Assembly: GCA_016278485.1 (NCBI GenBank) | Contig: JADQBT010000032.1 | Coordinates: 1-34,548, forward strand | Direction: 5' to 3' | DNA from: Halanaerobiales bacterium | GTDB lineage: Bacteria; Bacillota; Halanaerobiia; Halanaerobiales; Halanaerobiaceae | DNA length: 34,548 bases | Shown here: positions 1,711 to 30,602 of the stretch, piece by piece | Position numbering within the stretch: position 1 is the first letter of the stretch | How the letters are laid out: every line of letters begins with the position of its first letter | Made by a program: the position numbers and the translations under genes | The notes under the pieces: model-generated | Database searches by the model: none | Told to the model about the DNA's origin: nothing | What the model saw: only the letters and a program-made list of their open reading frames with translations

Positions 1711-1827
1711 AGATAACAATATATTTCCGATTTCGTTCCTTCGTCACTGCATCCAAATCCATCAACCCAAGATAAGAGCTAACTAAGGGTTGCTGGACTT
1801 CGGAAATGCGGTTAAGTTATGTGAAAT
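1711..1827 (+). repeat. attC-like cassette repeat, copy B (long type 1)
   Basis: The left box AGATAAC (1711-1717) and right box GTTATGT (1816-1822, then gaaat) are inverted repeats with one mismatch. Internally ATTTCCGA (1723-1730) is perfectly complementary to TCGGAAAT (1800-1807), which corresponds to the L''/L' arms of an attC site. An apical AACCC (1764-1768)/GGGTT (1787-1791) stem is also present. This copy shows the dyad most clearly. It starts 57 bp after the rsgA stop. Confidence 0.78.
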
Positions 1828-2776: not shown

Positions 2777-3208
2777 ATGATCAAAGTAGAGTTTTACGAA
2801 AAAGAAGAAATAAAAGAAAAGGATATAAAGTTTGCTGTAATAATGGCATTTTATAAAGATAAAATAGTTGTTGTTAGACATAGAGATAGAAATACTTGGG
2901 AGATACCAGGTGGACATAAAGAAGAAAATGAATCTAGTCTTGATGCTGCCAAAAGGGAATTATTTGAGGAAACAGGAGCAAAAGTATTTGATTTAAAATG
3001 GATATGTTCATATTCTGTTAATAGAGGAGAAAATAATTCGTTTGGTAATCTTTATTATGCTGATATAAAAGAATTGGGAAAATTACCTGGGTATGAAATA
3101 GAAGATGTAAAGTTAGTAAAAGAATTACCAAAAAATCTTACTTATCCTTTAATACAACCTCATTTGTATGAAAGAGTAAATAAATATATTGCAGGTGTAA
3201 CGGGATGA
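2777..3208 (+). CDS. Nudix hydrolase
   Basis: Nudix enzymes hydrolyse nucleoside diphosphates linked to another moiety, often damaged nucleotides. The 143-residue protein has a complete Nudix box that fits G-x5-E-x7-R-E-U-x-E-E-x-G-U: it begins at G46 and contains E52, REL (60-62) and EETG (64-67). The preceding strand IVVVRHRDRNTWEIPGG is typical of MutT/8-oxo-dGTPase-like members. AGAAAGGAAG precedes ATG 2777. The stop is only 4 bp from the left box of repeat D. The substrate cannot be predicted. An antisense open frame over this gene is a shadow. Confidence 0.88.
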   Translation: MIKVEFYEKEEIKEKDIKFAVIMAFYKDKIVVVRHRDRNTWEIPGGHKEENESSLDAAKRELFEETGAKVFDLKWICSYSVNRGENNSFGNLYYADIKELGKLPGYEIEDVKLVKELPKNLTYPLIQPHLYERVNKYIAGVTG

Positions 3209-3212
3209 CGTC

Positions 3213-3326
3213 AGATAACAAAATATTGCCGATTTCGTTCCTACGTCACTACATCCAAATTCCATCACCAAGGGCAGTCGCCCTAAGGTTCTGGAACTTG
3301 GGCAATACGATTACGGTATCTACAAT
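3213..3326 (+). repeat. attC-like cassette repeat, copy D (long type 1)
   Basis: The left box AGATAAC (3213-3219) pairs with GGTATCT (3315-3321) with one mismatch; the tail is acaat instead of gaaat. The inner arms tattgcc (left) and ggcaata (right) are complementary. The apical hairpin AGGGC-AGTC-GCCCT is like copy A but has a changed loop base. It directly abuts the Nudix stop codon. Confidence 0.75.
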
Positions 3327-3367: not shown

Positions 3368-4396
3368 ATGATAAATTACCCAACACCTTTAAAAAAAGGA
3401 GATACAATTGGGATTACAGCTCCATCATCTGGTGTAACTGGTGTTATTGTTAAGAAATTGGAAAATGCTAAAAGTCAGTTGAACAATTTAGGCTATAATT
3501 TTATTGAAACTGATTCTGTTAAAAACCAAAGTAAATTAACCAGTGCCCCTTCAAGTATTAGAGCTAAGGAATTCACATCATTATATTTAAATGAGGATGT
3601 AAGGGCAATAATTCCTCCTTGGGGGGGAGAATTTTTAATGGATATGTTACCTTATTTAAATTATGAGAAACTAAGGGAAGCTGAACCCAAGTGGATATTA
3701 GGATTTTCCGATATAAGTACATTATTGTTTACTTTAACATTAAAACTTAATATTGCTACAGCACATGGACCTAATTTACTTGATTTTGGTAATACACCAA
3801 TTCATGAATCAGTTTTGGAAACTTTAAATATTTTGAACAAAGAAAAAGGAGAGAATTTTGTACAACATAGTCTAGATCGATATCAAAAAGAGTGGTTGGA
3901 AGTTACAAAGAATAATATCCCTCCTTATAACTTAACAGAAAAAGTAGAGTGGAAGAATTTGGGTAATAAAAAAGAAGTTGAATGTAGTGGAAGACTGATG
4001 GGAGGAAATTTGGATGTAATATGTAAATTGATAGGAACTCCATATGATTTAGTAGAAAACTTTATAAATATGCATAACTCAGATGGGTTTATTTGGTATT
4101 TTGAGAGTTGTGAAATGGATTCATCTGATATATATAGAACTTTGTGGCAAATGAAAATGAATGGATGGTTTGAAGAGTGTAAAGGTATATTATATGGAAG
4201 AGCAGAAGGATATAGTGATGTAGAGGATTTCACATTAGTTGACTCATTAGAGTATTCTTTATCTGATTTAGATGTTCCTGTAATATATAATGTTGATTTA
4301 GGACATATGCCTCCTCAATTGGTATTTATCAATGGAGCATATGCAACTGTCAATGTAAAAGAAGGAGAAGGAGAAATAAAACAAGAATTAATTTAA
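3368..4396 (+). CDS. S66 family peptidase (LD-carboxypeptidase / MccF-like)
   Basis: Serine peptidases of family S66 include LdcA (murein tetrapeptide recycling) and MccF (microcin C7 self-immunity). The 342-aa protein starts with the family N-terminus L-K-x-G-D-x-I-G-I-x-A-P-S-S (residues 8-21). It has the nucleophile elbow GFSD with Ser114, the IIPPWGG segment (81-87), a glutamate region WYFESCE and the histidine region VDLGHMPPQ near the C-terminus. All expected catalytic positions are present. Full length and a GGAG ribosome site support an active gene. The MccF-like branch is often found as a stand-alone accessory gene, which fits a cassette; LdcA function remains possible. Confidence 0.85.
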   Translation: MINYPTPLKKGDTIGITAPSSGVTGVIVKKLENAKSQLNNLGYNFIETDSVKNQSKLTSAPSSIRAKEFTSLYLNEDVRAIIPPWGGEFLMDMLPYLNYEKLREAEPKWILGFSDISTLLFTLTLKLNIATAHGPNLLDFGNTPIHESVLETLNILNKEKGENFVQHSLDRYQKEWLEVTKNNIPPYNLTEKVEWKNLGNKKEVECSGRLMGGNLDVICKLIGTPYDLVENFINMHNSDGFIWYFESCEMDSSDIYRTLWQMKMNGWFEECKGILYGRAEGYSDVEDFTLVDSLEYSLSDLDVPVIYNVDLGHMPPQLVFINGAYATVNVKEGEGEIKQELI

Positions 4397-4416
4397 TATA
4401 TAGTCGCAGTTACTGC

Positions 4417-4476
4417 AGATAGCATGGTATTTCCGTTACGTAAAGACCAGCTACTCTGCGGGACGTTCAGCGAAAT
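4417..4476 (+). repeat. attC-like cassette repeat, copy E (short, 60 bp)
   Basis: A compact version: left box AGATAGC (4417-4423), then ggtatttccgttacg, gctactctgcggg, and right box GTTCAGC (4465-4471) with gaaat. The long internal section of the other types is missing, but both ends are kept. A length of 60 bp is close to the shortest known attC sites. Copies J and L are of the same short class. Confidence 0.65.
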
Positions 4477-4524
4477 GGGACTATGTTAGTATATATGGAA
4501 ATTAAAAAGAATTGGAGAATTAAA

Positions 4525-5364
4525 ATGATATTTGAAATTGAAAAAGACAACTTTAAATCTATTTATGGTCTATTAGATGATAAGGTGGATAATGTAGAAA
4601 TAAAAGCAGTTATTGAAGGAAATAATCCGGGCTGGATTTTTGTAGATTCTATAAAATCACCTCATACTGCAATGATTTGGTCAAAAGGTATTCAAGGATT
4701 CTATTTTGTTGGAGATGAAAACAATCCGGAATTTAATAATTATATTAGTGATTATATAGATAAAGAAATTGAACCAAGAGCAATTAAAGAAAACTTAAAT
4801 CGTTTTGAATTTAGTGGGGAAACTGAAAAATGGTGCTCGATACTAGAAGAGGTATTTAGTGGTAGAGAATTAAACAAGTCTAAACAATATATATATAAGT
4901 TTAAGTATGATTCATGGCATGATTATAAAAAACGTAAATTGAATGATAAGTTTGTGTTAAGAAAAATTAATATTGAATTATTAAATGATAAAAATATAAA
5001 AAACTTGGATTATATAGTTTCAGAAATTTTACGTTGGTGGAATTCTTGTGAGGAATATTTAAATGAAACATTTGGTTATTGTATAGTTTCTGATAATATA
5101 ATAGTAAACTATTGTTTATGCAATTTTGTATATGATGATATTCATACAATGGGAATTGAAACTCTTGAAGAGTATAGAAGAAATGGATTTTCACAAGTTA
5201 CAACAGAAGCTTTTGTAGAAACATGCATAGATAAACAATTAAAACCTCACTGGGAATGTATGGGGAGTAATATACCATCATGGAGTTTAGCTGAAAAATT
5301 AAACTTTAATAGAGAACATATTTATACACTATATTCATTTCCATTTAAAAAAGAAATAAATTAA
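4525..5364 (+). CDS. GNAT family acetyltransferase, two-part
   Basis: Acetyl-CoA-dependent N-acetyltransferase by fold. About 279 aa if translation starts at ATG 4525, which has TTGGAG at the right distance; the upstream ATG 4483 has none. The N-terminal half (IEGNNPGWIFVDSIKSPHTAMIWSKG) resembles the PF12746 type. The C-terminal half holds IVSDNIIVNYCLCNFVYDDIHTMGIETLEEYRRNGFSQVTTEA, corresponding to motif A, with a relaxed R-R-N-G-F acetyl-CoA loop in place of R/Q-x-x-G-x-G/A. It ends in a LAEKLNFNRE segment typical of the last GNAT strand. The acceptor is unknown. Confidence 0.75.
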   Translation: MIFEIEKDNFKSIYGLLDDKVDNVEIKAVIEGNNPGWIFVDSIKSPHTAMIWSKGIQGFYFVGDENNPEFNNYISDYIDKEIEPRAIKENLNRFEFSGETEKWCSILEEVFSGRELNKSKQYIYKFKYDSWHDYKKRKLNDKFVLRKINIELLNDKNIKNLDYIVSEILRWWNSCEEYLNETFGYCIVSDNIIVNYCLCNFVYDDIHTMGIETLEEYRRNGFSQVTTEAFVETCIDKQLKPHWECMGSNIPSWSLAEKLNFNREHIYTLYSFPFKKEIN

Positions 5365-5397
5365 GTGATAGCAAATATTGTGGGTTAGTCCCACTTC

Positions 5398-5508
5398 GCT
5401 TAATTAAAATATTGCCGGTTCTGCTCCTTCGTCGCTCCACTCAAATTCCTTCACCAAGGGCTGTCTGACTAAGGTTCATAAACTTTGGAAACTCAAGTTA
5501 TATGACAT
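5398..5508 (+). repeat. attC-like cassette repeat, copy F (long type 1)
   Basis: The left end is diverged (gcttaatt). The right box is GTTATAT (5497-5503) with tail gacat. The interior aligns with A, B and D: attgccggttctgctccttcgtcgct, then caccaagggctgtct and aaggttcataaactt. The apical GGGC stem is partly lost. It begins 33 bp after the GNAT stop. Confidence 0.7.
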
Positions 5509-5594: not shown

Positions 5595-5992
5595 ATGGAA
5601 TTATTAAAAGAAATAAATCATAAAGAGCAATTAAATAAAAAAGGCAGATTAATTACTCGAGAAGCTGTACGAGGTATTATTTTAGATAACGAAAAGGTTC
5701 TTATGATATTATCTACTGAAAATGGTGATTATAAATTTCCTGGTGGAGGAAATGAAATTGGAGAGACCAAAGAAGAAACTCTTATTATTACATATGTATG
5801 GTAGAGGAAAATTTTTGCAAACAAAATCATGATCAATATGAGGAAGAGTTAGAATTTAAACCTGTTTGGGTTGATATTGATGATGCAATTCAAAAAAATA
5901 ATTTGATACTTAATTCAAATTCTGAAAAAATTCCTAGGTGGACAAAAAGAGAAACATATGTATTAGAATACATTAAAGAAAGTGAATTTTGA
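5595..5992 (+). pseudogene. Nudix hydrolase, internally deleted and frameshifted
   Basis: Two overlapping frames form one broken gene. Frame 1 (from ATG 5595, behind GAGGTGG) gives AVRGIILDNEKVLMILSTEN, then FPGGGNEIGETKEETL, the first half of a Nudix box, and stops at 5804. Frame 3 continues with VEENFCKQNHDQYEEELEFKPVWVDIDDAI and ends at 5992. In related proteins the catalytic REUxEExG helix and about 30-40 residues lie between these parts; here they are absent. So an internal deletion that also shifted the frame removed the active site. Its stop falls in the middle of a repeat unit (copy G). Confidence 0.78.
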
Positions 5993-6069
5993 TGCACCAA
6001 ATTTCTTCACTAAGGGCAATCGCCCTAGAGTTCGGGAACTTCATAAATACGCGGGACGTTATGGGAAAT
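5993..6069 (+). repeat. attC-like cassette repeat, copy G (right half only)
   Basis: It starts abruptly at the position that corresponds to the middle of copy A (tgcaccaaatttcttcac), keeps the AGGGC/GCCCT hairpin and the ttcgggaactt segment, and ends in GTTATGG (6058-6064) plus gaaat. The left box and the left arm are missing. The break coincides with the end of the damaged Nudix gene, so deletion or illegitimate recombination joined the two. Confidence 0.7.
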
Positions 6070-6094
6070 GCCTTTTATTGGAAGGGAGAGTAAA

Positions 6095-7090
6095 GTGGTT
6101 ATACAAAATAAAATGCTTGAATTTATAGATAAATTAAATAAAGTAAATGGGAGAAAAAATATATTTTATGAAACAACTAAATATAAAAAAATTCCTCCTT
6201 TAGGTAAATATGTTGTTGATTATATAATATCTCATCAACAAGAAATAATTGAATATATTAATTCTACTGAAGAATTTCAAACTAAAAAATTTATTAGAAA
6301 AGTAGTAGAATATTCTACTGATAAAATAATTGCAACTCTATTTAATTTAAATCAATATGCAGAAATAAATGATGAAATAATTAATAAAATCAATGCTCTA
6401 TATTATAATTTTGTGAATGAGGTATTTAATAAATTAAGATTAAATCAGGCTATTAATTTAGAATGGATAAATATACTTGTAATTGAACATCAAGTTCGTT
6501 TAAGAGAGATTTTAGGAGAAATTGATGAATTAAAAATTTTTTCTAAAGATAAAAAATATTTAGATCCTATCCCCTGTTCAGAGTATAGTGCAGTTTTTCA
6601 ACTAGAAATTTTAAATATTAATGTAGAGAAAATTTGTGAACCAGTTTTAGATGTCGGTTGTGGTTCTAGTGCTAAATTAGTTCATTATTTACGTGCTCAA
6701 GGTATAAAAGCTTATGGTATAGATAGAAGTATAGAAAAGAAATCATCTTATCTTATAGAAACAGATTGGTTTGAATTTAAAATGAAACCAAATTATTGGG
6801 GAACTATTATTTCACACTTATCATTTACAAATCATTTTAAAAGAAATCATTTTAAAAAGAATGGAAATCATATTATTTATGCTAGAAGATATATGGATTT
6901 GCTTAATTCTTTGAAATTAGGTGGCAGCTTTTTTTATACTCCTGATTTAGCTTTTATTGAACAATTTTTAACTTCTGATTTATATGATATTAATAAGAAA
7001 AAAATTAATAACGAAAAATTAAGTCTTATGAAAAGAAAAAATAACATGAACATTTATTCTGTACAAATAAATAAATTAAATAATAATTAA
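6095..7090 (+). CDS. SAM-dependent methyltransferase with a long N-terminal helical region
   Basis: A class I methyltransferase fold lies in the C-terminal half: motif I PVLDVGCGSSAKLVHYLR, then the acidic end of strand 2 in AYGIDRS. A late GGSFFYTPDL strand corresponds to motif IV/V. The N-terminal 170 residues are charged and helical with no domain I recognise. GTG 6095 has GGAAGGGAG upstream and is preferred. The open frame from ATG 6068 would begin inside the preceding repeat. AT content is high, with long runs of Lys, Asn and Ile. The substrate is unknown. Confidence 0.7.
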   Translation: MVIQNKMLEFIDKLNKVNGRKNIFYETTKYKKIPPLGKYVVDYIISHQQEIIEYINSTEEFQTKKFIRKVVEYSTDKIIATLFNLNQYAEINDEIINKINALYYNFVNEVFNKLRLNQAINLEWINILVIEHQVRLREILGEIDELKIFSKDKKYLDPIPCSEYSAVFQLEILNINVEKICEPVLDVGCGSSAKLVHYLRAQGIKAYGIDRSIEKKSSYLIETDWFEFKMKPNYWGTIISHLSFTNHFKRNHFKKNGNHIIYARRYMDLLNSLKLGGSFFYTPDLAFIEQFLTSDLYDINKKKINNEKLSLMKRKNNMNIYSVQINKLNNN

Positions 7091-7641: not shown

Positions 7642-7659
7642 GAGTTAACAACGTTCTTC

Positions 7660-7782
7660 GTCTAACAGAGGGTTCCCGTCACGCTAGAGTTCAAGCTATT
7701 CTGCGGGACATGCTATCCAAACTTTGCGGCAGGTCCTAGTGGACATGAGCACATCGGGAAATCTGGGGATGTTAAGCGTAAT
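7660..7782 (+). repeat. attC-like cassette repeat, copy H (type 2)
   Basis: The best match to canonical integron core sites: the left box GTCTAAC (7660-7666) fits RYYYAAC and the right box GTTAAGC (7771-7777) fits GTTRRRY. The interior is ggttcccgtcacgc, ctattctgcgggacatgct, aaactttgcggcagg, then gacatgagcacatcggga, as in copies C and M. The tail is gtaat. It starts 18 bp after the membrane protein stop. Confidence 0.75.
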
Positions 7783-8835: not shown

Positions 8836-9014
8836 ATAATGGACCATATAAATATATCCGGCATCCAGGTAATTTAGGAATGATATTAGCATCTTTCGTT
8901 CAACCATTAATTGTTGGGCCTATATATGCATTTATACCAGGTTTTTTTGCCGCACTTTTAGTAGTTATAATAACTAAAATGGAAGATGGAATTTCTCCTA
9001 AATTTAGAGAATAA
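8802..9014 (+). pseudogene. Isoprenylcysteine carboxyl methyltransferase (ICMT)-like, 3' fragment
   Basis: A different frame from the hydrolase gives RIQNQRNHKIIDNGPYKYIR, then HPGNLGM and two hydrophobic stretches, stopping at 9012-9014. G-P-Y-x-Y-I/V-R-H-P is the SAM-binding signature of ICMT/PEMT-type membrane methyltransferases. In these the R-I-Q...H-K-x-I-x-x-G-P-Y run is typical. The first ~100 residues are absent and no start codon precedes the fragment, so it is a remnant joined to the 3' end of the hydrolase. Confidence 0.72.
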
Positions 9015-9045
9015 GAAAAGATCAGTTCAAAAAAGGAGTGTAATC

Positions 9046-9813
9046 GTGAAATCAAATCAAGTAAAAGAACAGTATAATTCTATGGCTTTTTTCTATGATG
9101 TATTATATGCTAATTATGATCTTAGTGAATTTGAAAATGAATTTATTAATGAGCATAAAGAATTACTTGCTTCAGTATCTAATGAGGCAAAAATATTAGA
9201 TAGTTCTTGTGGAAAAGGAGTTCAAGCTGTTGCATTAAAAAAACAAGGGTTCAATGTTACAGCCACTGATATTAGCCAAGAAATGATAAAATTAACACAA
9301 ATTTATGCTAAGGATAATAATTTATCTATACCTTTAAAACGTTTAGCCTGGAGTGAATTACCTTTAGAATTTGATGATATATTTGATATTGTTTTTTGTT
9401 GGGGTAATTCAATAAGTCACAGTCTTGGAAAAGAAGATATGCTTAAAAATTTATCATCTTTTCACAAAATAGTGAAAGATGGTGGTAAGGTAGTTATTCA
9501 TACAAGAAATTGGGAAAAGATATTAAAAGAAAATCAGAGATTTCAGTCATTACCAATAAGAGAATATAATAATAAGAAATACATACCGTTATATATTTGG
9601 AATTTGTCTGGTTTTGATAAAATAAATTATGTAGAAATTATATTTGTTAAGATTATGCAAGATGGAAGTACAAGTTGTACTTTATTTAGATTAGATTTTG
9701 TACCTTTTTCTCATATTGACTTGATTGACCGCTTGAATACTACTGGTTTTAAGATATTTTATGATAATTATGATATAAATAGTGACTTTTATTATATTGT
9801 AGCTGAGAAGTAG
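9046..9813 (+). CDS. Class I SAM-dependent methyltransferase
   Basis: Motif I reads ILDSSCGKGVQAVALKKQG, strand 2 ends in VTATDIS, and the motif IV region is FDIVFCWGNSISH, close to glycine/sarcosine N-methyltransferase-like and UbiE-like proteins. Motif I has S-S-C-G-K-G instead of D-x-G-C-G-x-G. That is common in one branch of these enzymes and still gives a glycine-rich loop. GTG 9046 is preceded by AAAAGGAG and is chosen. The longer open frame from 8986 would start inside the ICMT remnant. Length 255 aa is normal. Substrate unknown. Confidence 0.8.
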   Translation: MKSNQVKEQYNSMAFFYDVLYANYDLSEFENEFINEHKELLASVSNEAKILDSSCGKGVQAVALKKQGFNVTATDISQEMIKLTQIYAKDNNLSIPLKRLAWSELPLEFDDIFDIVFCWGNSISHSLGKEDMLKNLSSFHKIVKDGGKVVIHTRNWEKILKENQRFQSLPIREYNNKKYIPLYIWNLSGFDKINYVEIIFVKIMQDGSTSCTLFRLDFVPFSHIDLIDRLNTTGFKIFYDNYDINSDFYYIVAEK

Positions 9814-9828
9814 GCACAGGGAAACATC

Positions 9829-9888
9829 AGATAACATGAGATTTGAGATTCCGCTACGCTCCATTCAAAACCCTATATACTGTTAAAC
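9829..9888 (+). repeat. attC-like cassette repeat, copy J (short)
   Basis: The left box AGATAAC (9829-9835) lies 15 bp after the methyltransferase stop. It is followed by gagattccgctacgctcc, and GTTAAAC (9882-9888) fits GTTRRRY. The gaaat tail is absent; the Shine-Dalgarno of the next gene starts at once. Length is 60 bp, like copies E and L. The right end is less certain than the left. Confidence 0.55.
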
Positions 9889-9903
9889 CGGGAGGAAATA
9901 AGA

Positions 9904-10725
9904 ATGAAAACAGAAATCATAGAAAGATTACCTAATGTAAGTAAAAGTGAGTTAGTTAAATATTTCCCTAAAATTGATGTTAAAGAATATCCAGAGTTAA
10001 TTAATTATTCATGGGAAGACTGCCATAAAGGGTCGATGGGAGCAGGGGATTTATTTTTAACAAATGAATTAACTAAGAAAATAAATATTAAAAAAGGTAT
10101 GAGGATACTTGAGTTAGGAGCTGGGAATTGTTTAAGTGCTATATTTCTAGCGAAAAAATATAATGTAGAGATTATTGCAGCTGATTTATGGATTGATCCG
10201 ACATCAAATTGGCAAAGAATAAAAGATGAAGGGGTAGAAAATTATGTTAAGCCAATAAAAATGGATGCTAGAAGTATACCATTTCCCAAAGGATATTTTG
10301 ATGTTGTTTTTTCTATGAACTCTTATTTTTATTTTGGTACAGATGATTTATATCTCCCATATTTATTAAAATATATAAAAGAAACAGGAATTATATGTAT
10401 AGCTAGTCCTTGCTTTGCATCTGAATTCAAATATAAAATTCCAGAAGAATTCTTATTTGATCCTCCTGAATTTAAAGAGTCTTATTCAATTCATTCGCCT
10501 AATTGGTGGAGAAAACATTTTGAAAAAGTAAAACAAATTGAAGTACTTGAATGTTTCAAACATCCGAAAGGGAGAGAATTTTGGTTAGATAGTATACGCT
10601 GGCAAATTGAATCCGGTCGAAATATTAATGACTTTTTAAAAGATATAACTATGCTGTTAAAAGATGAAAATGAATATCTAACATATTTTACTTTGATAGC
10701 TAAAAAAACAAAAACAATAGACTAA
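9904..10725 (+). CDS. Class I SAM-dependent methyltransferase
   Basis: A 273-residue protein with motif I ILELGAGNCLSAIFLAKKY, strand 2 end IIAADLW, motif II-like KMDARSIPFPKGYFDVVFSM and a later IICIASPCF strand. The WRKHFEKV and WIDPTSNW segments resemble SAM methyltransferases of small accessory clusters. GGGAGG stands 8 bp before ATG 9904, directly after the right end of repeat J. The C-terminal 60 residues are more divergent and may carry substrate specificity. Family sure, acceptor unknown. Confidence 0.8.
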   Translation: MKTEIIERLPNVSKSELVKYFPKIDVKEYPELINYSWEDCHKGSMGAGDLFLTNELTKKINIKKGMRILELGAGNCLSAIFLAKKYNVEIIAADLWIDPTSNWQRIKDEGVENYVKPIKMDARSIPFPKGYFDVVFSMNSYFYFGTDDLYLPYLLKYIKETGIICIASPCFASEFKYKIPEEFLFDPPEFKESYSIHSPNWWRKHFEKVKQIEVLECFKHPKGREFWLDSIRWQIESGRNINDFLKDITMLLKDENEYLTYFTLIAKKTKTID

Positions 10726-11721: not shown

Positions 11722-11736
11722 AAACAATCTAATGTT

Positions 11737-11798
11737 GGATAACATGGGATTCCCGTGACGCAAAAAATCGTGCTACCCTTCGGTACGTTATCTGACAT
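11737..11798 (+). repeat. attC-like cassette repeat, copy L (short)
   Basis: The left box GGATAAC (11737-11743) and right box GTTATCT (11787-11793, tail gacat) are inverted repeats with one mismatch. The interior is gggattcccgtgacg then gtgctacccttcgg. It is 62 bp long, starts 15 bp after the protease stop and ends 24 bp before the next ATG. Confidence 0.7.
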
Positions 11799-11822: not shown

Positions 11823-12677
11823 ATGCATATAAAAACTTTAACAAATGAATTACTTCATGATTTTCTTGAATATTGTAATAAATATGGAAAAGAGCATGAT
11901 GAATCTTACTTACCAGATGGAGATTTTAAGCTAAATTCAGAAAATCCCACGTATTTGTTATATAACAATTCAAACGAATTAATAGGTGTAGTTTCATTGA
12001 TGCTTAATGAGGGGAGATTTAGGATTTTTCATTCAATTGAAGCTAAATTGCTTAATTATAGATGTTTGTTTGATAAAATATTACTTGATACAAATAGATT
12101 GAAGAAAATACATCTTTTTCTTCCAGAAGGAAAGATAAAGGTAAGAGAAATATTGAAGAAATTAGATTTTGTCGAACAAAGATATTCTTGGTATTTAGAA
12201 AAAAATAATACTAAGATAAATAATATTGAATTACTAAATGTATATAAAGTGAAATCTATAAAGTGGAACAAAGAAGAAAATATATGGTGCAGTCTTATAA
12301 ATAATAATTTTAAAGAGCATCATGGTTTTTCTAAATTAAAAATAGATGATGTTAAAAAAATGAAAGGCCAAAACGGAAAATTGTTTATATTATGGAGAGG
12401 TAAAAAACCTATAGGGACAATACAATTAAATATAAATATTGAGAATGGTATTAAATTTGGTTTTATATCATGGCTAAGTATAAATAAACCATATAGAGGA
12501 ATGGGATTAGGGAGAAATTTACTAAGATATGCAATAAAATTAGCAAATGAAAACATGGCAGAAAAAACAGGATTAGTTGTACATTCAACAAATAAAAATG
12601 CAGTACAATTGTATCAAAATGAAGGATTTAAGAAGATTGAGTCTTTTATTTGTTTTAATAAAAAACTCAATTTATAA
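11823..12677 (+). CDS. GNAT family acetyltransferase, tandem domain
   Basis: The C-terminal GNAT domain is clear: KKPIGTIQLNI, then FISWLSINKPYRGMGLGRNLLRYAI (motif A with the acetyl-CoA loop R-G-M-G-L-G) and NKNAVQLYQNEGFKKIES (motif B). The N-terminal half (ELIGVVSLMLN, ILKKLDFVEQRYSWYLE) looks like a second, degenerate GNAT domain without a P-loop, so the 284-residue protein resembles mycothiol-synthase-type duplicated GNATs. GAAAGGGG precedes ATG 11823. The substrate is unknown. Confidence 0.82.
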   Translation: MHIKTLTNELLHDFLEYCNKYGKEHDESYLPDGDFKLNSENPTYLLYNNSNELIGVVSLMLNEGRFRIFHSIEAKLLNYRCLFDKILLDTNRLKKIHLFLPEGKIKVREILKKLDFVEQRYSWYLEKNNTKINNIELLNVYKVKSIKWNKEENIWCSLINNNFKEHHGFSKLKIDDVKKMKGQNGKLFILWRGKKPIGTIQLNINIENGIKFGFISWLSINKPYRGMGLGRNLLRYAIKLANENMAEKTGLVVHSTNKNAVQLYQNEGFKKIESFICFNKKLNL

Positions 12678-12692
12678 AGAATGCCCAACGTC

Positions 12693-12855
12693 AGTTAACC
12701 AGATATTTCCGCTACGGACTAGCAGCCTGCCTTCGGGACATGCTCTCTGACACAAAGCTTGAAATGAATGAGGGGGTAATACAGCCGTCGTCAAACTTTG
12801 CGTCAGTTTATATCGACACGAGCACGTCGGGAACAGTTGATACGTTAAGTGAAAT
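12693..12855 (+). repeat. attC-like cassette repeat, copy M (long type 2)
   Basis: The left box AGTTAAC (12693-12699) lies 15 bp after the GNAT stop. The right box GTTAAGT (12844-12850) fits GTTRRRY and is followed by gaaat. The interior matches C and H: tttccgctacg, cttcgggacatgctctctgacacaaagcttgaaatgaatgag, then caaactttgcg, gacacgagcacgtcggga. At 163 bp it is the longest copy. Confidence 0.78.
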
Positions 12856-12928: not shown

Positions 12929-13783
12929 ATGATTAAAAAATTAACAGATAGAATTTATTATATGCCACACAAAGAGGACACGGATAGACCTTCCCTAGGA
13001 CTTATCTGTGGTAACAAATATAGTCTGATAGTTGACTCAGGAAACTCTCCGAGTCATGCAAAAGAGTTTATTTCAGAAATAAAGTCAATGGATATTCCAC
13101 CATTGAAATATCTAGTTCTTACACATTATCATTGGGATCATATTTTTGGGATACGAAAGATGAACCTAATAACCATTGCTAACAAAAATACAAAAGAAAA
13201 AATAGATGGAATGAAAAAATTAAAGTGGGATGATGCATCATTAGAAGAATATCTTGATAGTGAAAGATTTTCTGATTTTACTATTGAATGTATAAAAAAG
13301 GAAATACCCAAAAGAGATAGGTTTGCAATAGGTGATTTAGATATTATATATAAGGATAGTATTGAAATAGATTTAGGAGAATTAAAATGTATTGTTAAAG
13401 AAATTGGAGGGTCGCATACTGATGATTCGTCTGTCATCTATATTCCTGAAGAAAAAGTTTTATTTTTAGGAGATTGTATTTATGGTAGAAGATATAATGG
13501 AGTATATGGTTATACCAAAGAAAAACTATTTCCTATGATTGATGAGATTGAAAAGTACGATGCTAATTATTATATTATTTCACATCAGGATGTATATAAT
13601 AAATCTCAGATACATGAGCTATGGAATCAATTAAAATTAGCCGAACAGATAGTAGGAAAAAATTGGTCTATTGAAGATATAAAAAAAAGATTTTCAGATA
13701 AATTTAATGAATTACCTTCTGAAGATGTTAATTTTTATATTAAGTGTTTTGCAAATGTAAATAAGGCATTATCAAAATCATAG
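12929..13783 (+). CDS. Metallo-beta-lactamase fold hydrolase
   Basis: A 284-residue MBL-fold protein. The dinuclear metal motif H-x-H-x-D-H is THYHWDH (residues 65-71). The next histidine is in GGSHTDDS, the bridging aspartate in LFLGDCIYG and the last histidine in IISHQD. The glycine-rich start LGLICGNKYSLIVDSGNS is usual for the family. AGAAAGGAAGAAGG precedes ATG 12929. Members include glyoxalase II, lactonases, quorum-quenching enzymes and beta-lactamases. The THYHWDH context and GDCIYG resemble the broad MBL hydrolase group rather than class B lactamases. Confidence 0.88.
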   Translation: MIKKLTDRIYYMPHKEDTDRPSLGLICGNKYSLIVDSGNSPSHAKEFISEIKSMDIPPLKYLVLTHYHWDHIFGIRKMNLITIANKNTKEKIDGMKKLKWDDASLEEYLDSERFSDFTIECIKKEIPKRDRFAIGDLDIIYKDSIEIDLGELKCIVKEIGGSHTDDSSVIYIPEEKVLFLGDCIYGRRYNGVYGYTKEKLFPMIDEIEKYDANYYIISHQDVYNKSQIHELWNQLKLAEQIVGKNWSIEDIKKRFSDKFNELPSEDVNFYIKCFANVNKALSKS

Positions 13784-14550: not shown

Positions 14551-14638
14551 TTCCCCAAAGTATTATCTGGTGACTTTATTGTATTTTTAACGTGGGGAGG
14601 CCTCATAACAATGAGTTTACGGTTACGTTATCTGAAAT
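14551..14638 (+). repeat. attC-like repeat, copy O (rearranged)
   Basis: The right end is perfect (acGTTATCT at 14627-14633, then gaaat). The left part is not: there is a second attatctgg-like box at 14562-14570 and a cataac at 14604-14609, as if two site ends had been joined. ttcccc (14551-14556) can pair with gggga (14594-14598). Probably a deletion product of one or two sites. Confidence 0.5.
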
Positions 14639-17288: not shown

Positions 17289-17753
17289 CCATTTATGATA
17301 TAACATTTGTCTGTCTCGCTTGTGAACATTTTAATGGCCATGATTCAATGACTAAGTTAATAACAAAAAATAATACTATTTCAACTGATACATTTAAAAA
17401 TATATTTTTTTGCCATTGTTCTTAAAATATTTATAATATTATTATATCATATTCATGTTTACGTTTAAAAGATATAGTTTTAATGAACATTACTATATTA
17501 ATGGTTAAAATTAATTAACAGGTATAGATTAAAATAAAATATCCCTTTATTCAAATATTATTTAAAATCAAATAAACCTTTTGTTCTTGTTTAGTTAGAA
17601 AAAGTGCAGAGGTATGGGAACATTATTTCACATTTTATATTATTAATTGGTTAAAGGATATTAAGATCTAATTTGAAAGATTATAAACATGTTGTTTTTA
17701 TAATGATTGTAGGAAAAAAAGTAAGAAAAGCAAACATAATAGTATCACTGTGG
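17289..17753. other. Gene-free AT-rich stretch
   Basis: No open frame, RNA gene or repeat is supported here. It is very AT-rich and lies upstream of the minus-strand membrane gene and before repeat P, so it may hold the promoter of the former. I see no consensus -35/-10 pair that I would stand behind. Confidence 0.4.
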
Positions 17754-17864
17754 GTAAAGCACAGTACAGCTCGGGTCCTTCCTCGGTACCTAAATCCTGC
17801 AACCTAAGATAGGAGTTATCTTAGGGTTGCCGGACTTCGAAAATAAGGATACGTTATATGACAT
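17754..17864 (+). repeat. attC-like cassette repeat, copy P (long type 1)
   Basis: The right box GTTATAT (17853-17859) has tail gacat; the left end is diverged (gtaaagcac). The apical hairpin is the strongest in the array. AACCTAAGATA (17801-17811) pairs with TATCTTAGGGTT (17817-17828) over 11 bp with one bulged G. At the same place copies A and D use AGGGC/GCCCT. The ggacttcg arm is also kept. Confidence 0.72.
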
Positions 17865-17969: not shown

Positions 17970-18389
17970 ATGAAAATAAAACAAGATGATTATTTAATAA
18001 CGGACAATAAAGAAAATATTGACATAGATTTTATTATTAGGTCTTTGCAAGAAACTTATTGGGCAAAAAATAGAAAAAAGGAAGTTATAATAAACTCAAT
18101 AGATAATTCTATTTTAATATCAATGTTTAAAAAGAAACAGCAAATAGGTTTTAGTAGAATAGTAACTGATAAAGCTGCATTTGCATGGGTTGCTGATGTA
18201 TATATTGATAAAAAATATAGAGGAAAAGGTTTGGGAAAATGGCTTGTCAAGAACACTACAGATCATCCAGATATAAAAAATGTATTTTTACAACTATTAA
18301 AAACAAAAGATGCCCATGGTGTATATGAGAAATTTGGATTTAAAAGAGATGATTGTTTAACTAAAAGAAAGATTTCAGAAGAATTATAA
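17970..18389 (+). CDS. GNAT family acetyltransferase, compact
   Basis: A 139-residue single-domain GNAT. The order is: ETYWAKNR near the start, QQIGFSRIVTDKAAFAWVADVYIDKKYRG, the acetyl-CoA loop R-G-K-G-L-G (about 90-95) and VYEKFGFKRDD at the end. The E-T-Y-W and F-A-x-V-A-D-V-Y-I features are characteristic of a large group of short bacterial GNATs of unknown substrate. AAGGAG precedes ATG 17970. It is complete. Confidence 0.87.
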   Translation: MKIKQDDYLITDNKENIDIDFIIRSLQETYWAKNRKKEVIINSIDNSILISMFKKKQQIGFSRIVTDKAAFAWVADVYIDKKYRGKGLGKWLVKNTTDHPDIKNVFLQLLKTKDAHGVYEKFGFKRDDCLTKRKISEEL

Positions 18390-18744: not shown

Positions 18745-18767
18745 TGTTGTTTAATTGACGGGAATTC

Positions 18768-18874
18768 ACATAAACATGGTATTTACAGTTCCACTATCGT
18801 TATTCCCAAATTACCTCATCAAGAGCACCCCAGGATTCAGGAACTTCGTAAATGCCTAGTAGGTTATTTAAAAT
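18768..18874 (+). repeat. attC-like cassette repeat, copy Q (decayed type 1)
   Basis: cacataaacatgg at the left, attcccaaattacctcatcaagagc in the middle, caggattcaggaacttcgtaaatgcc, and GTTATTT-aaaat (18863-18874) at the right. It aligns with copy A over its length but with many changes. This is the last copy with both ends visible and marks the 3' border of the array. Confidence 0.65.
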
Positions 18875-20278: not shown

Positions 20279-21577
20279 ATGTTTATGAAATACATTTTTG
20301 TACAGATGAATGAAAAGTACGCAAATGAAATTGCATTTGATTGGAAATATGAAGGTAGTTATTCTTTTTATGATATGACTGCTGATAAACAAGATTTAAA
20401 AGAATTTTTGAATCCAAAGCACTGGGAATATGAGTTTGCAGTTCTAGATGAATTTAAAGAATTAATTGGTTTTTATTCATATAATTTTGAAAATGGTATT
20501 ATGTGGATCGGTTTTGGCTTAAAACCTGATTTAACAGGAAAAGGGTATGGTTCTGATTTTGTAATGTCTGGAATTGAGTTTGGAATAAAAAGATATAATT
20601 ATGACAAAGATTATTTGATGTTAGCAGTTGCAAAGTTTAATCAACGTGCAATTAAAGTATATCAGAAAATAGGTTTTAAGATAATGGAAGAGTATTTACA
20701 GGAAACTAATGGAGGAAAATATAAATTTGTAAAAATGAAGAAGGAAGTTAAAGAGGAAAAAATGGGAAAAGAAATAAAGGATTATACAAAACAAAATAAA
20801 AAAGCCTGGGATGAAGTTATGCCAAAACATCAAGCAGCATCGAAAGAGTTATTAGACCAATTGTTTTCTACACCTGGTTATATCTGTCAAAAAAATGAAA
20901 ATTTATTACAGGTATTTGATAAAATTAATGTTCAAGGTAAAGACATTATACATCTATGTTGTAATAACGGGTCAGAATTACTGTCCTTAAAGAACATGGG
21001 TGCAGTGAGATGTGTTGGTATTGATTTTTGTGATGAAGCAATAGATGAAGCAAAAGAAAAAGCAAATAAGTTTAATATTAACTGCGAATTTATATGTTCT
21101 GATGTCTATGATATTTCGAAAGAGCTTTATGAATCTTTTGATATTGTTCATCTGACAGCGGGTTGTATTGGATGGATACCAAATTTGAATAAGTTTTTCA
21201 AAATTATTTATAACTTGTTAAGAGAAAATGGTGTAGTTCTTATCCATGAAATTCATCCCTTTAGTGAAATGTTACCGTTTGATGATAGCAATATTAAAAA
21301 CAAATTACAAATCATTGAACCATATTTTAGAGACGAACCTATTGAAGAAAATAGTAGTTTAGATTATGTAGGTGGAACAGATTATTATGCTGAAACACAA
21401 TATTGGTTTGTTCATACAATTTCAACAATAATCATGGCATTGCGAGATAATAATTTGGCAATTGAGCAATTTTCTGAGTATCCTGACGATGTATCTGCCG
21501 GTCATAAAAAGCAAGAAGAATTAGAAGCAAAAATTCCATTAAGTTATATTTTAGTTGGTAAAAAACAATTGAAGTAG
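20279..21577 (+). CDS. GNAT-methyltransferase fusion protein
   Basis: A 432-residue protein with two complete enzymes. Residues 1-155 are a GNAT paralogous to the preceding gene (WIGFGLKPDLTGKGYGSDF, KFNQRAIKVYQKIGF). Residues 165-432 are a class I SAM methyltransferase (DIIHLCCNNGSELLSL motif I, VGIDFCDEAI, DIVHLTAGCIGW). At the junction, in frame, AAGAGG (20751-20756) lies 5 nt before ATG 20762 (residue 162). The methyltransferase can therefore probably also be made alone. The linker KMKKEVKEEKMGKEI looks like the C-terminus of a GNAT read through into a former 5' leader. TTGGAG precedes ATG 20279. Confidence 0.82.
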   Translation: MFMKYIFVQMNEKYANEIAFDWKYEGSYSFYDMTADKQDLKEFLNPKHWEYEFAVLDEFKELIGFYSYNFENGIMWIGFGLKPDLTGKGYGSDFVMSGIEFGIKRYNYDKDYLMLAVAKFNQRAIKVYQKIGFKIMEEYLQETNGGKYKFVKMKKEVKEEKMGKEIKDYTKQNKKAWDEVMPKHQAASKELLDQLFSTPGYICQKNENLLQVFDKINVQGKDIIHLCCNNGSELLSLKNMGAVRCVGIDFCDEAIDEAKEKANKFNINCEFICSDVYDISKELYESFDIVHLTAGCIGWIPNLNKFFKIIYNLLRENGVVLIHEIHPFSEMLPFDDSNIKNKLQIIEPYFRDEPIEENSSLDYVGGTDYYAETQYWFVHTISTIIMALRDNNLAIEQFSEYPDDVSAGHKKQEELEAKIPLSYILVGKKQLK

Positions 21578-30065: not shown

Positions 30066-30602
30066 TTATAAATAAATATGAAGACTAGCAAGAAAAGCTC
30101 CAATAATATTAAATATTAGATCTAGATTTGTATCAACAAGACCTAATTGGCTATGTGATGAGGGTTTATTAAATAGATCATAAAGAAACTCAAATAATTC
30201 AAAAACTGTACCAATAGCTATTCCCAATGAAATTATTAAAATTATCTCTCTAATGTTAATAGAATTAGGTTTGGGTGAGAAGTGATTTAACAAACTGTAA
30301 TAGAATAGAGTAAAAGAATAAGTTCCGAAAAGATGTAATAATAGATCGAACGTCTCCGATTTATGATACAGATTTAAATAAGTTCCAAAGTAACTATGTA
30401 TTAACATAGTTAAGAGGATTAATATTCTATGATAGTTAGTTATATATATATTATATTTTGATTCTAAATAAATATAAATCAGGTAGATTAGAGAAGAAAA
30501 AATAATGATAAAGAGGCTGTCATTACCATTATTAATTAATTTTACTAAAATTATCGATTGTATTAAGAAGAAAAGAAGATTTATATATTTTTTTAAATTG
30601 AT
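30066..30602 (-). CDS. DUF2238 (YjdF-like) membrane protein; likely ATC start
   Basis: Inner-membrane protein of the DUF2238 family. Diagnostic segments: LLHLFGTYSFTLFYYSL, SLGIAIGTVFELFEFLYDL and LGLVDTNLDLIFNIIGAFLAS (the G-x-x-D-T-x-x-D-L-x-x-N-x-x-G pattern). The first ATG in frame (30407) falls inside the family domain. Upstream the frame stays open for 65 more codons with two or three hydrophobic segments and ends at ATC (30602-30600), 8 nt after a perfect AGGAGG (30611-30616 on the complement). That gives about 178 aa, close to family size. No ATG, GTG or TTG is present in frame in this extension. Function unknown. Confidence 0.7.
   Translation of the reverse strand: MNLKKYINLLFFLIQSIILVKLINNGNDSLFIIIFSSLIYLIYIYLESKYNIYITNYHRILILLTMLIHSYFGTYLNLYHKSETFDLLLHLFGTYSFTLFYYSLLNHFSPKPNSINIREIILIISLGIAIGTVFELFEFLYDLFNKPSSHSQLGLVDTNLDLIFNIIGAFLASLHIYL

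Follow-up and report, generated by a model that had tools for sequence, protein, structure and literature searches.

Worn attC-like sites in a Halanaerobiales genome point to an integron-type cassette array and to IntI-related recombinases lacking I2

The window analysed here, a stretch of 34,548 nt that comprises all of contig C27 of a 2.86 Mb Halanaerobiales genome in 39 contigs, carries repeats that on sequence grounds are real attC-like sites, worn copies of integron-type cassette recombination sites. Homology to the sites of related genomes, taken together with the covariation, bottom-strand bias and GTT breaks found in those relatives, identifies the window as a degenerate cassette array. 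We consider it probable (roughly 80%) that the window represents such a worn array and that an IntI-related tyrosine recombinase lacking the I2 region, in the ancestor and still in relatives, moves these cassettes via folded sites.

Repeats and genes of the window

Between ~0.4 and 19 kb, the window holds small plus-strand genes, most of which are directly followed by a palindromic repeat. To compare these repeats with sites of known context, we used a covariance model (R1) with nine integrase-linked seed sites, all taken from genomes of the order other than the host's. The loci of relatives were picked by IntI-like recombinase genes, which clear attC-like sites adjoin; named relatives in the comparison set include Halonatronum and Halanaerobacter. 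The host itself is probably a halophilic, anaerobic bacterium. Aligned as bottom strands, the nine seed sites show changes on both sides in 19 of 34 predicted pairs. The attC-like sites of the window are listed with their R1 scores and with the z of the bottom-strand DNA fold against shuffles.

479–592, +: site A, after a CAAX-protease gene; R' GTTATCT at 584; degenerate; R1 62 bits, E 2e-12; z about −0.5 to 0
1709–1824, +: site B; R'' 1711–1717, L'' 1723–1730, L' 1800–1807, R' 1816–1822; R1 71 bits, E 1.5e-14; z −1.9
2432–2588, +: site C, of the longer class, with R' GTTATCT at 2580; repeat families D5/D10; z −2.3
3211–3323, +: site D; crossover triplet GTT mutated to GGT at 3315; R1 78 bits, E 3e-16; z −4.2
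4410–4480, +: site E, truncated, recognised by sequence; z −2.9
5396–5505, +: site F; R1 46 bits, E 1.1e-8; z 0.0
5953–6066, +: site G, missing its 5' part, with R' GTTATGG at 6058; R1 31.5 bits, E 3e-5
7658–7779, +: site H, TCTAAC...GTTAAGC; R1 15 bits, E 0.25, weak; repeat family D5; z +0.1
9827–9885, +: site I, left half only; repeat family D6; R1 25 bits over 9827–9935
11735–11795, +: short remnant GGATAAC...GTTATCT (copy L of the original prediction), recognised by sequence
12691–12852, +: site L, of the long class, with R' GTTAAGT at 12844; R1 14.7 bits, E 0.3, weak; repeat D10
14600–14635, +: remnant, R' half; GTTATCT at 14627; repeat family D2
17732–17861, +: site O; R1 26 bits, E 7e-4; z −3.2 over 17750–17861
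18766–18871, +: site P, the last one found in the window; R1 60 bits, E 7e-12

The original prediction held that the repeat ends are inverted and that inner arms pair, as in folded attC sites, and the pairings it named are in place. In copy B, the outer boxes AGATAAC (1711–1717) and GTTATGT (1816–1822) are complementary at six of seven positions, and the inner 8-mers ATTTCCGA (1723–1730) and TCGGAAAT (1800–1807) are fully complementary. Copy D (3211–3323) contains TATTGCC/GGCAATA as claimed, and GGATAAC/GTTATCT is present around 11737 and 11787.

The generic R-plus-L geometry yields no excess in this AT-rich window, with 13 matches compared to 23 in shuffles at a loose threshold, and we therefore dropped geometry alone as evidence. 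A scan with the R' 12-mer was swamped by chance matches in AT-rich DNA. What exceeds chance in the window is homology to the sites of relatives, not geometry: sites D, B, A, P and F match R1 at E 3e-16 to 1e-8, sites G, O and I at E 3e-5 to 1e-3, and sites H and L weakly, so that copy B and seven other window sites reach E ≤ 0.001. Over the host genome, R1 finds 23 sites on seven contigs (C27, C10, C19, C30, C3, C5 and C32); within the order, sites occur in 20 of 38 genomes, with 45 in genome G025 alone.

The genes between the sites are of the types GNAT, NUDIX, methyltransferase, GyrI-like, YCII, flavodoxin and metallo-beta-lactamase fold (Pfam). The following cassette genes were annotated.

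640–1653, +: RsgA-type GTPase (PF03193)
1945–2424, +: flavodoxin (PF12724)
2777–3208, +: NUDIX hydrolase (PF00293)
3368–4396, +: LD-carboxypeptidase S66 (PF02016/PF17676)
4483–5364, +: GNAT acetyltransferase (PF12746)
6068–7090, +: methyltransferase-like, no Pfam match; tblastn finds a 66% identical protein in genome G025
8986–9813, +: SAM methyltransferase (PF13649)
12929–13783, +: metallo-beta-lactamase fold (PF00753)
17970–18389, +: GNAT acetyltransferase (PF13508)

Recent transfer of cassettes between the window and relatives was considered and rejected, as there is a single distant homologue (66%) without a site of the same class nearby. Known RNA elements were likewise set aside after an Rfam scan of the window returned no family match, and a tRNA search of the window found none. 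The remainder of the window (~20–34.5 kb) contains zero matches to R1. In this part, a GNAT acetyltransferase and a methyltransferase are apparently fused in one reading frame (20279–21577), and inverted arms of ~15 nt, 161 nt overall, surround the start of a small minus-strand gene (30285–30445); the latter score highly in the geometry scan, yet lie outside the array.

Single window copies fold weakly (z about 0 to −4), most of them no better or little better than shuffles, and they show hardly any strand bias (copy B, −13.9 for the bottom and −13.1 for the top strand). On contigs C10 and C19 of the same genome, the sites fold well, mostly at z −3 to −6, and since most window sites do not, the window is the worn part of the array. 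The attC-like architecture originally proposed for the window thus stands strongly in the homologous sites, but most window copies are too degenerate to fold well.

Fold, strand bias and cassette movement in relatives

We aligned 58 distinct sites and derived a common fold, which stands at the level of the family although several single window copies do no better than shuffled sequence. The covariation score is 0.445, compared to 0.05–0.09 for slid partners, and 93.7% of structure cells are paired; since the sites were aligned to fit the structure, the absolute covariation figure leans high. Doubly changed cells number 321, against 105 in shuffled data. The bottom-strand bias foreseen for the window copies is small there and resides in their homologues, where the bottom strand is the more stable one in 55 of the 58 sites. 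In the structure-fitted alignment, variable pairs include 56 G.T and 30 A.C, and G.T forms only on the bottom strand; at two near-invariant G.T pairs, the other strand would have A.C mismatches.

The spacer between R and L measures 5–6 nt on the R' side and 2–3 nt on the R'' side, with a difference of 3–4 in 54 of 58 sites. As very few class 1 sites served for comparison with classical attC, we take this asymmetry for a consistent trait of the class and claim no measured difference from classical attC. The GAAGT sequence that follows the L stem is conserved, and 71 of 74 sites carry GTT as their crossover triplet. R''/R' boxes together with a foldable bottom strand are found in the relatives and on C10 and C19, and are degenerate in most window copies. 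In two respects the sites depart from the classical attC invoked earlier: R–L spacers are unequal, and the linked integrase is without the I2 region that in the classical case reads the extrahelical bases.

Traces of cassette movement are found outside the window, in the relatives. In genome G025, one cassette lies directly after attI, after an attC-like site 2 kb on, and after another ~40 kb away, with a further copy in a second array at a distance of ~0.9 Mb; the copies hardly differ between the bounding GTT triplets, and their flanks are unrelated. Other cassettes with identical GTT-to-GTT borders occur in genomes G005, G011 and G022. Throughout the G025 arrays, 14 of 80 distinct duplication ends fall within 8 nt of the predicted crossover, where 0.5% would be expected. 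These copy borders correspond to mobile cassettes bounded by G/TT.

Most relatives have a single GTTAnnnG(A/C)AAT site 56–150 nt after the integrase stop, the predicted attI. The host genome contains a site of the same type after an integrase scrap, followed by cassettes. By its sequence and position, the predicted attI lies beside the integrase gene. Several attI regions have perfect or near-perfect palindromes before the crossover (L036 11060–11170, L020 9650–9700, L062 11020–11090), for example ATTAACGACATATGTCGTTAAT in Halonatronum; these may be candidate integrase binding sites.

Group II introns of ~1.9 kb (Rfam RF02005/RF00029, with a reverse transcriptase ORF) occupy many attC-like sites of G025 (L234:515–2250; array positions 12362, 40501, 57441, 64193, 103618 and 127906 in L232–L238). 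They are inserted either in the loop of the head hairpin or immediately behind R', reminiscent of the attC-seeking introns of classical integrons. A group II intron with an RF02005 match at its 5' end also lies near attC-like sites on host contig C5 (L175:1470–3004). Reverse-complemented, the end of host contig C10 is identical to the beginning of C3, and C19 and C5 are related likewise, which indicates that the assembly breaks at repeated array stretches.

Integrases lacking I2 and the competing explanations

The integrases of the relatives comprise ~361 aa. Their alignment to the integron integrase profile falls into two parts that skip positions ~181–231, and the alignment to IntI4, whose structure is known, is interrupted there too. 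From the first catalytic Arg to HxxRH, this clade has 89–94 aa, compared to 128–136 aa in classical IntI and 98 aa in Xer. The sequence alignment shows that the I2 region is missing, and we therefore describe the system as a new integron variant and not as an integron in the strict sense. Across 20 aligned members, the catalytic residues R, K, H, R, H and Y do not vary. In a tree of 69 proteins, read as unrooted, the clade forms one branch (92/92), classical IntI another (99/98) and Xer a third. An AlphaFold2 model (pLDDT 87) predicts an extra N-terminal domain of ~65 residues and matches both IntI4 and XerA. The best-fitting family for the clade is NCBIfam NF040815, 'tyrosine recombinase/integron integrase'.

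With Xer (XerA, XerD; NF040815) the clade shares the domain order, the near-Xer R-to-H distance and the best model fit; it differs in that it forms a separate clade and is linked to attI and cassette arrays, not to dif. This likeness raises the possibility that the enzyme works in a Xer-like manner on double-stranded DNA and that the hairpin potential of the sites is a by-product of symmetric binding arms. The missing I2 and the closeness of the modelled structure to XerA would agree with this, as would the palindromes in some attI regions, and double-strand reactions are still possible for classical IntI (PMC4792948). Covariation, however, reaches into head stems far from the arms, and both stability and G.T pairs favour one strand. 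We regard the double-strand explanation as less likely, but as a serious rival.

The presence of arrays follows the presence of the integrase. Scoring genomes for the integrase and for at least two strong sites, we obtained both in 13, sites only in 3, integrase only in 3 and neither in 19 (Fisher p 4e-5). The sites without an integrase match belong to the host, G006 and G035; among the three genomes with an integrase in which no site was found, at least one is an incomplete assembly and one has a shorter integrase. In G001, an insertion element that encodes an IS3-type transposase interrupts the integrase gene (L022:8714–9894).

The host genome retains a ~50-residue C-terminal integrase scrap (L016:11430–11583) on a contig other than the window; the frames upstream of it are unrelated and full of stops, and no other integrase of the clade was found in the host assembly. 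Since the integrase is reduced to this scrap and many window sites are degenerate, the window array is probably immobile. The window resembles a CALIN: sites between 479 and 6066 lie less than 4 kb apart, and no intact integrase was found in the incomplete assembly (E 1e-40). It differs from a CALIN in that the host's site class fits a model derived from I2-less systems and in that an integrase scrap lies beside attI on another contig.

The array could in principle be a CALIN of an ordinary integron, the classical, I2-bearing IntI having been missed or acting from elsewhere. R boxes, the GTT crossover, cassette contents and bottom-strand bias are all classical-like, and an assembly that is 96% complete in 39 contigs leaves room for a missed gene. 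This explanation is nevertheless unlikely: the host and its relatives have no classical IntI above the profile cut-off (0 of 41 related genomes, among them single-contig genomes with large arrays such as G025), and one I2-bearing IntI was found among 199 genomes of the phylum. In their occurrence, the arrays follow the I2-less clade, and their spacers are unequal.

Clade members with co-oriented downstream arrays occur in Bacteroidetes, Spirochaetes, Nitrospirae and Firmicutes. Counted up to 10 kb from 80 clade integrases of several phyla, asymmetric attC-like sites are downstream and co-oriented in 42 instances, downstream and opposite in 2 and upstream in 1, compared to ~0.5 to 1 site in all for shuffled controls. 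The integrase gene is hence not divergent from the cassettes (42 co-oriented sites to 3). R1 gives 27 matches close to integrases of other groups (Brucepastera, Fusibacter, Paenibacillus and relatives, Flavobacterium and G038); every one of them is co-oriented with the integrase, and the class 1 and class 2 integron loci yield none. A reading of the repeats as scattered elements unrelated to cassettes (REP-like sequences, MITEs or terminators) that lie between genes by chance is very improbable: they are intergenic and palindromic, and short inverted repeats are common in AT-rich DNA, but their single orientation, their occurrence at mostly one per gene, the GTT borders of duplicated cassettes, the attI and the linkage to one integrase clade all speak against it.

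Under the cassette-array reading that we prefer, small genes, mostly each with an attC-like site of 57–170 nt after it, would be mobilised as follows. In the folded bottom strand, an uneven internal loop would separate the R stem from the L stem, with a branched head beyond, and the enzyme would bind at R and L of this strand by analogy with integrons (PMC3053210, PMC7790495). Cleavage would take place at the GTT of R', and the cassette would be joined to the single attI just downstream of the integrase gene or to another attC. We infer that recombination acts on the folded single strand itself and that the I2-less integrase makes the cut. The Holliday junction would, as in classical integrons, be resolved by replication, and the uneven spacer and the conserved GAAGT junction, possibly together with the N-terminal domain, would stand in for I2.

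Relation to known integrons and evolutionary meaning

Like the classical integron (for example class 1 and the V. cholerae superintegron, with IntI structure 2A3V), the system has single-gene cassettes arrayed in one orientation, attC of the form R''/L''...L'/R', the GTT crossover, the bottom-strand bias and an attI next to the integrase gene. It differs in that the relatives' integrase is without I2 and the neighbouring region (~40 aa shorter), forms a separate clade, carries an extra N-terminal domain of ~65–80 aa and is transcribed in cassette direction, and in that the spacers are unequal. The spirochaete reverse integrons likewise have the integrase gene and the cassettes in the same direction; their IntIs are treated as typical and reversed (PMC9668308), whereas I2 is absent in the present clade.

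I2 is regarded as a requirement for cassette capture and is credited, as an evolutionary innovation, with enabling single-strand recombination (PMC7790495), and the co-evolution of I2 and attC has been described as a chicken-and-egg problem that functional intermediates could solve (PMC4792948). The IntI insertion is not fully conserved in the integron-like subgroup of tyrosine recombinases (PMC8138268). According to reviews and IntegronFinder 2.0, integrons are very rare in Firmicutes, and the latter reports one complete integron there, in Limnochorda pilosa (PMC9024848). In the openly searchable journal literature we found neither a description of attC-like arrays tied to I2-less enzymes nor a paper on such arrays in Halanaerobiales, Paenibacillus or Flavobacteria.

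Whether the clade as a whole represents phylum-spanning integrons, in which an IntI relative without I2, whether from the start or by loss, uses folded attC-like sites by another recognition mode, we consider evenly balanced. The present results suggest that searches requiring classical IntI undercount integrons, and they place a widespread cassette system in Firmicutes. I2-less integrases beside covarying, bottom-strand-biased arrays in several phyla are candidate functional intermediates that can be cloned, by which an open question on the origin of integrons becomes testable. If the proposal is true, the phylum-spanning I2-less class would be a living form of the intermediate asked for by models of integron evolution.
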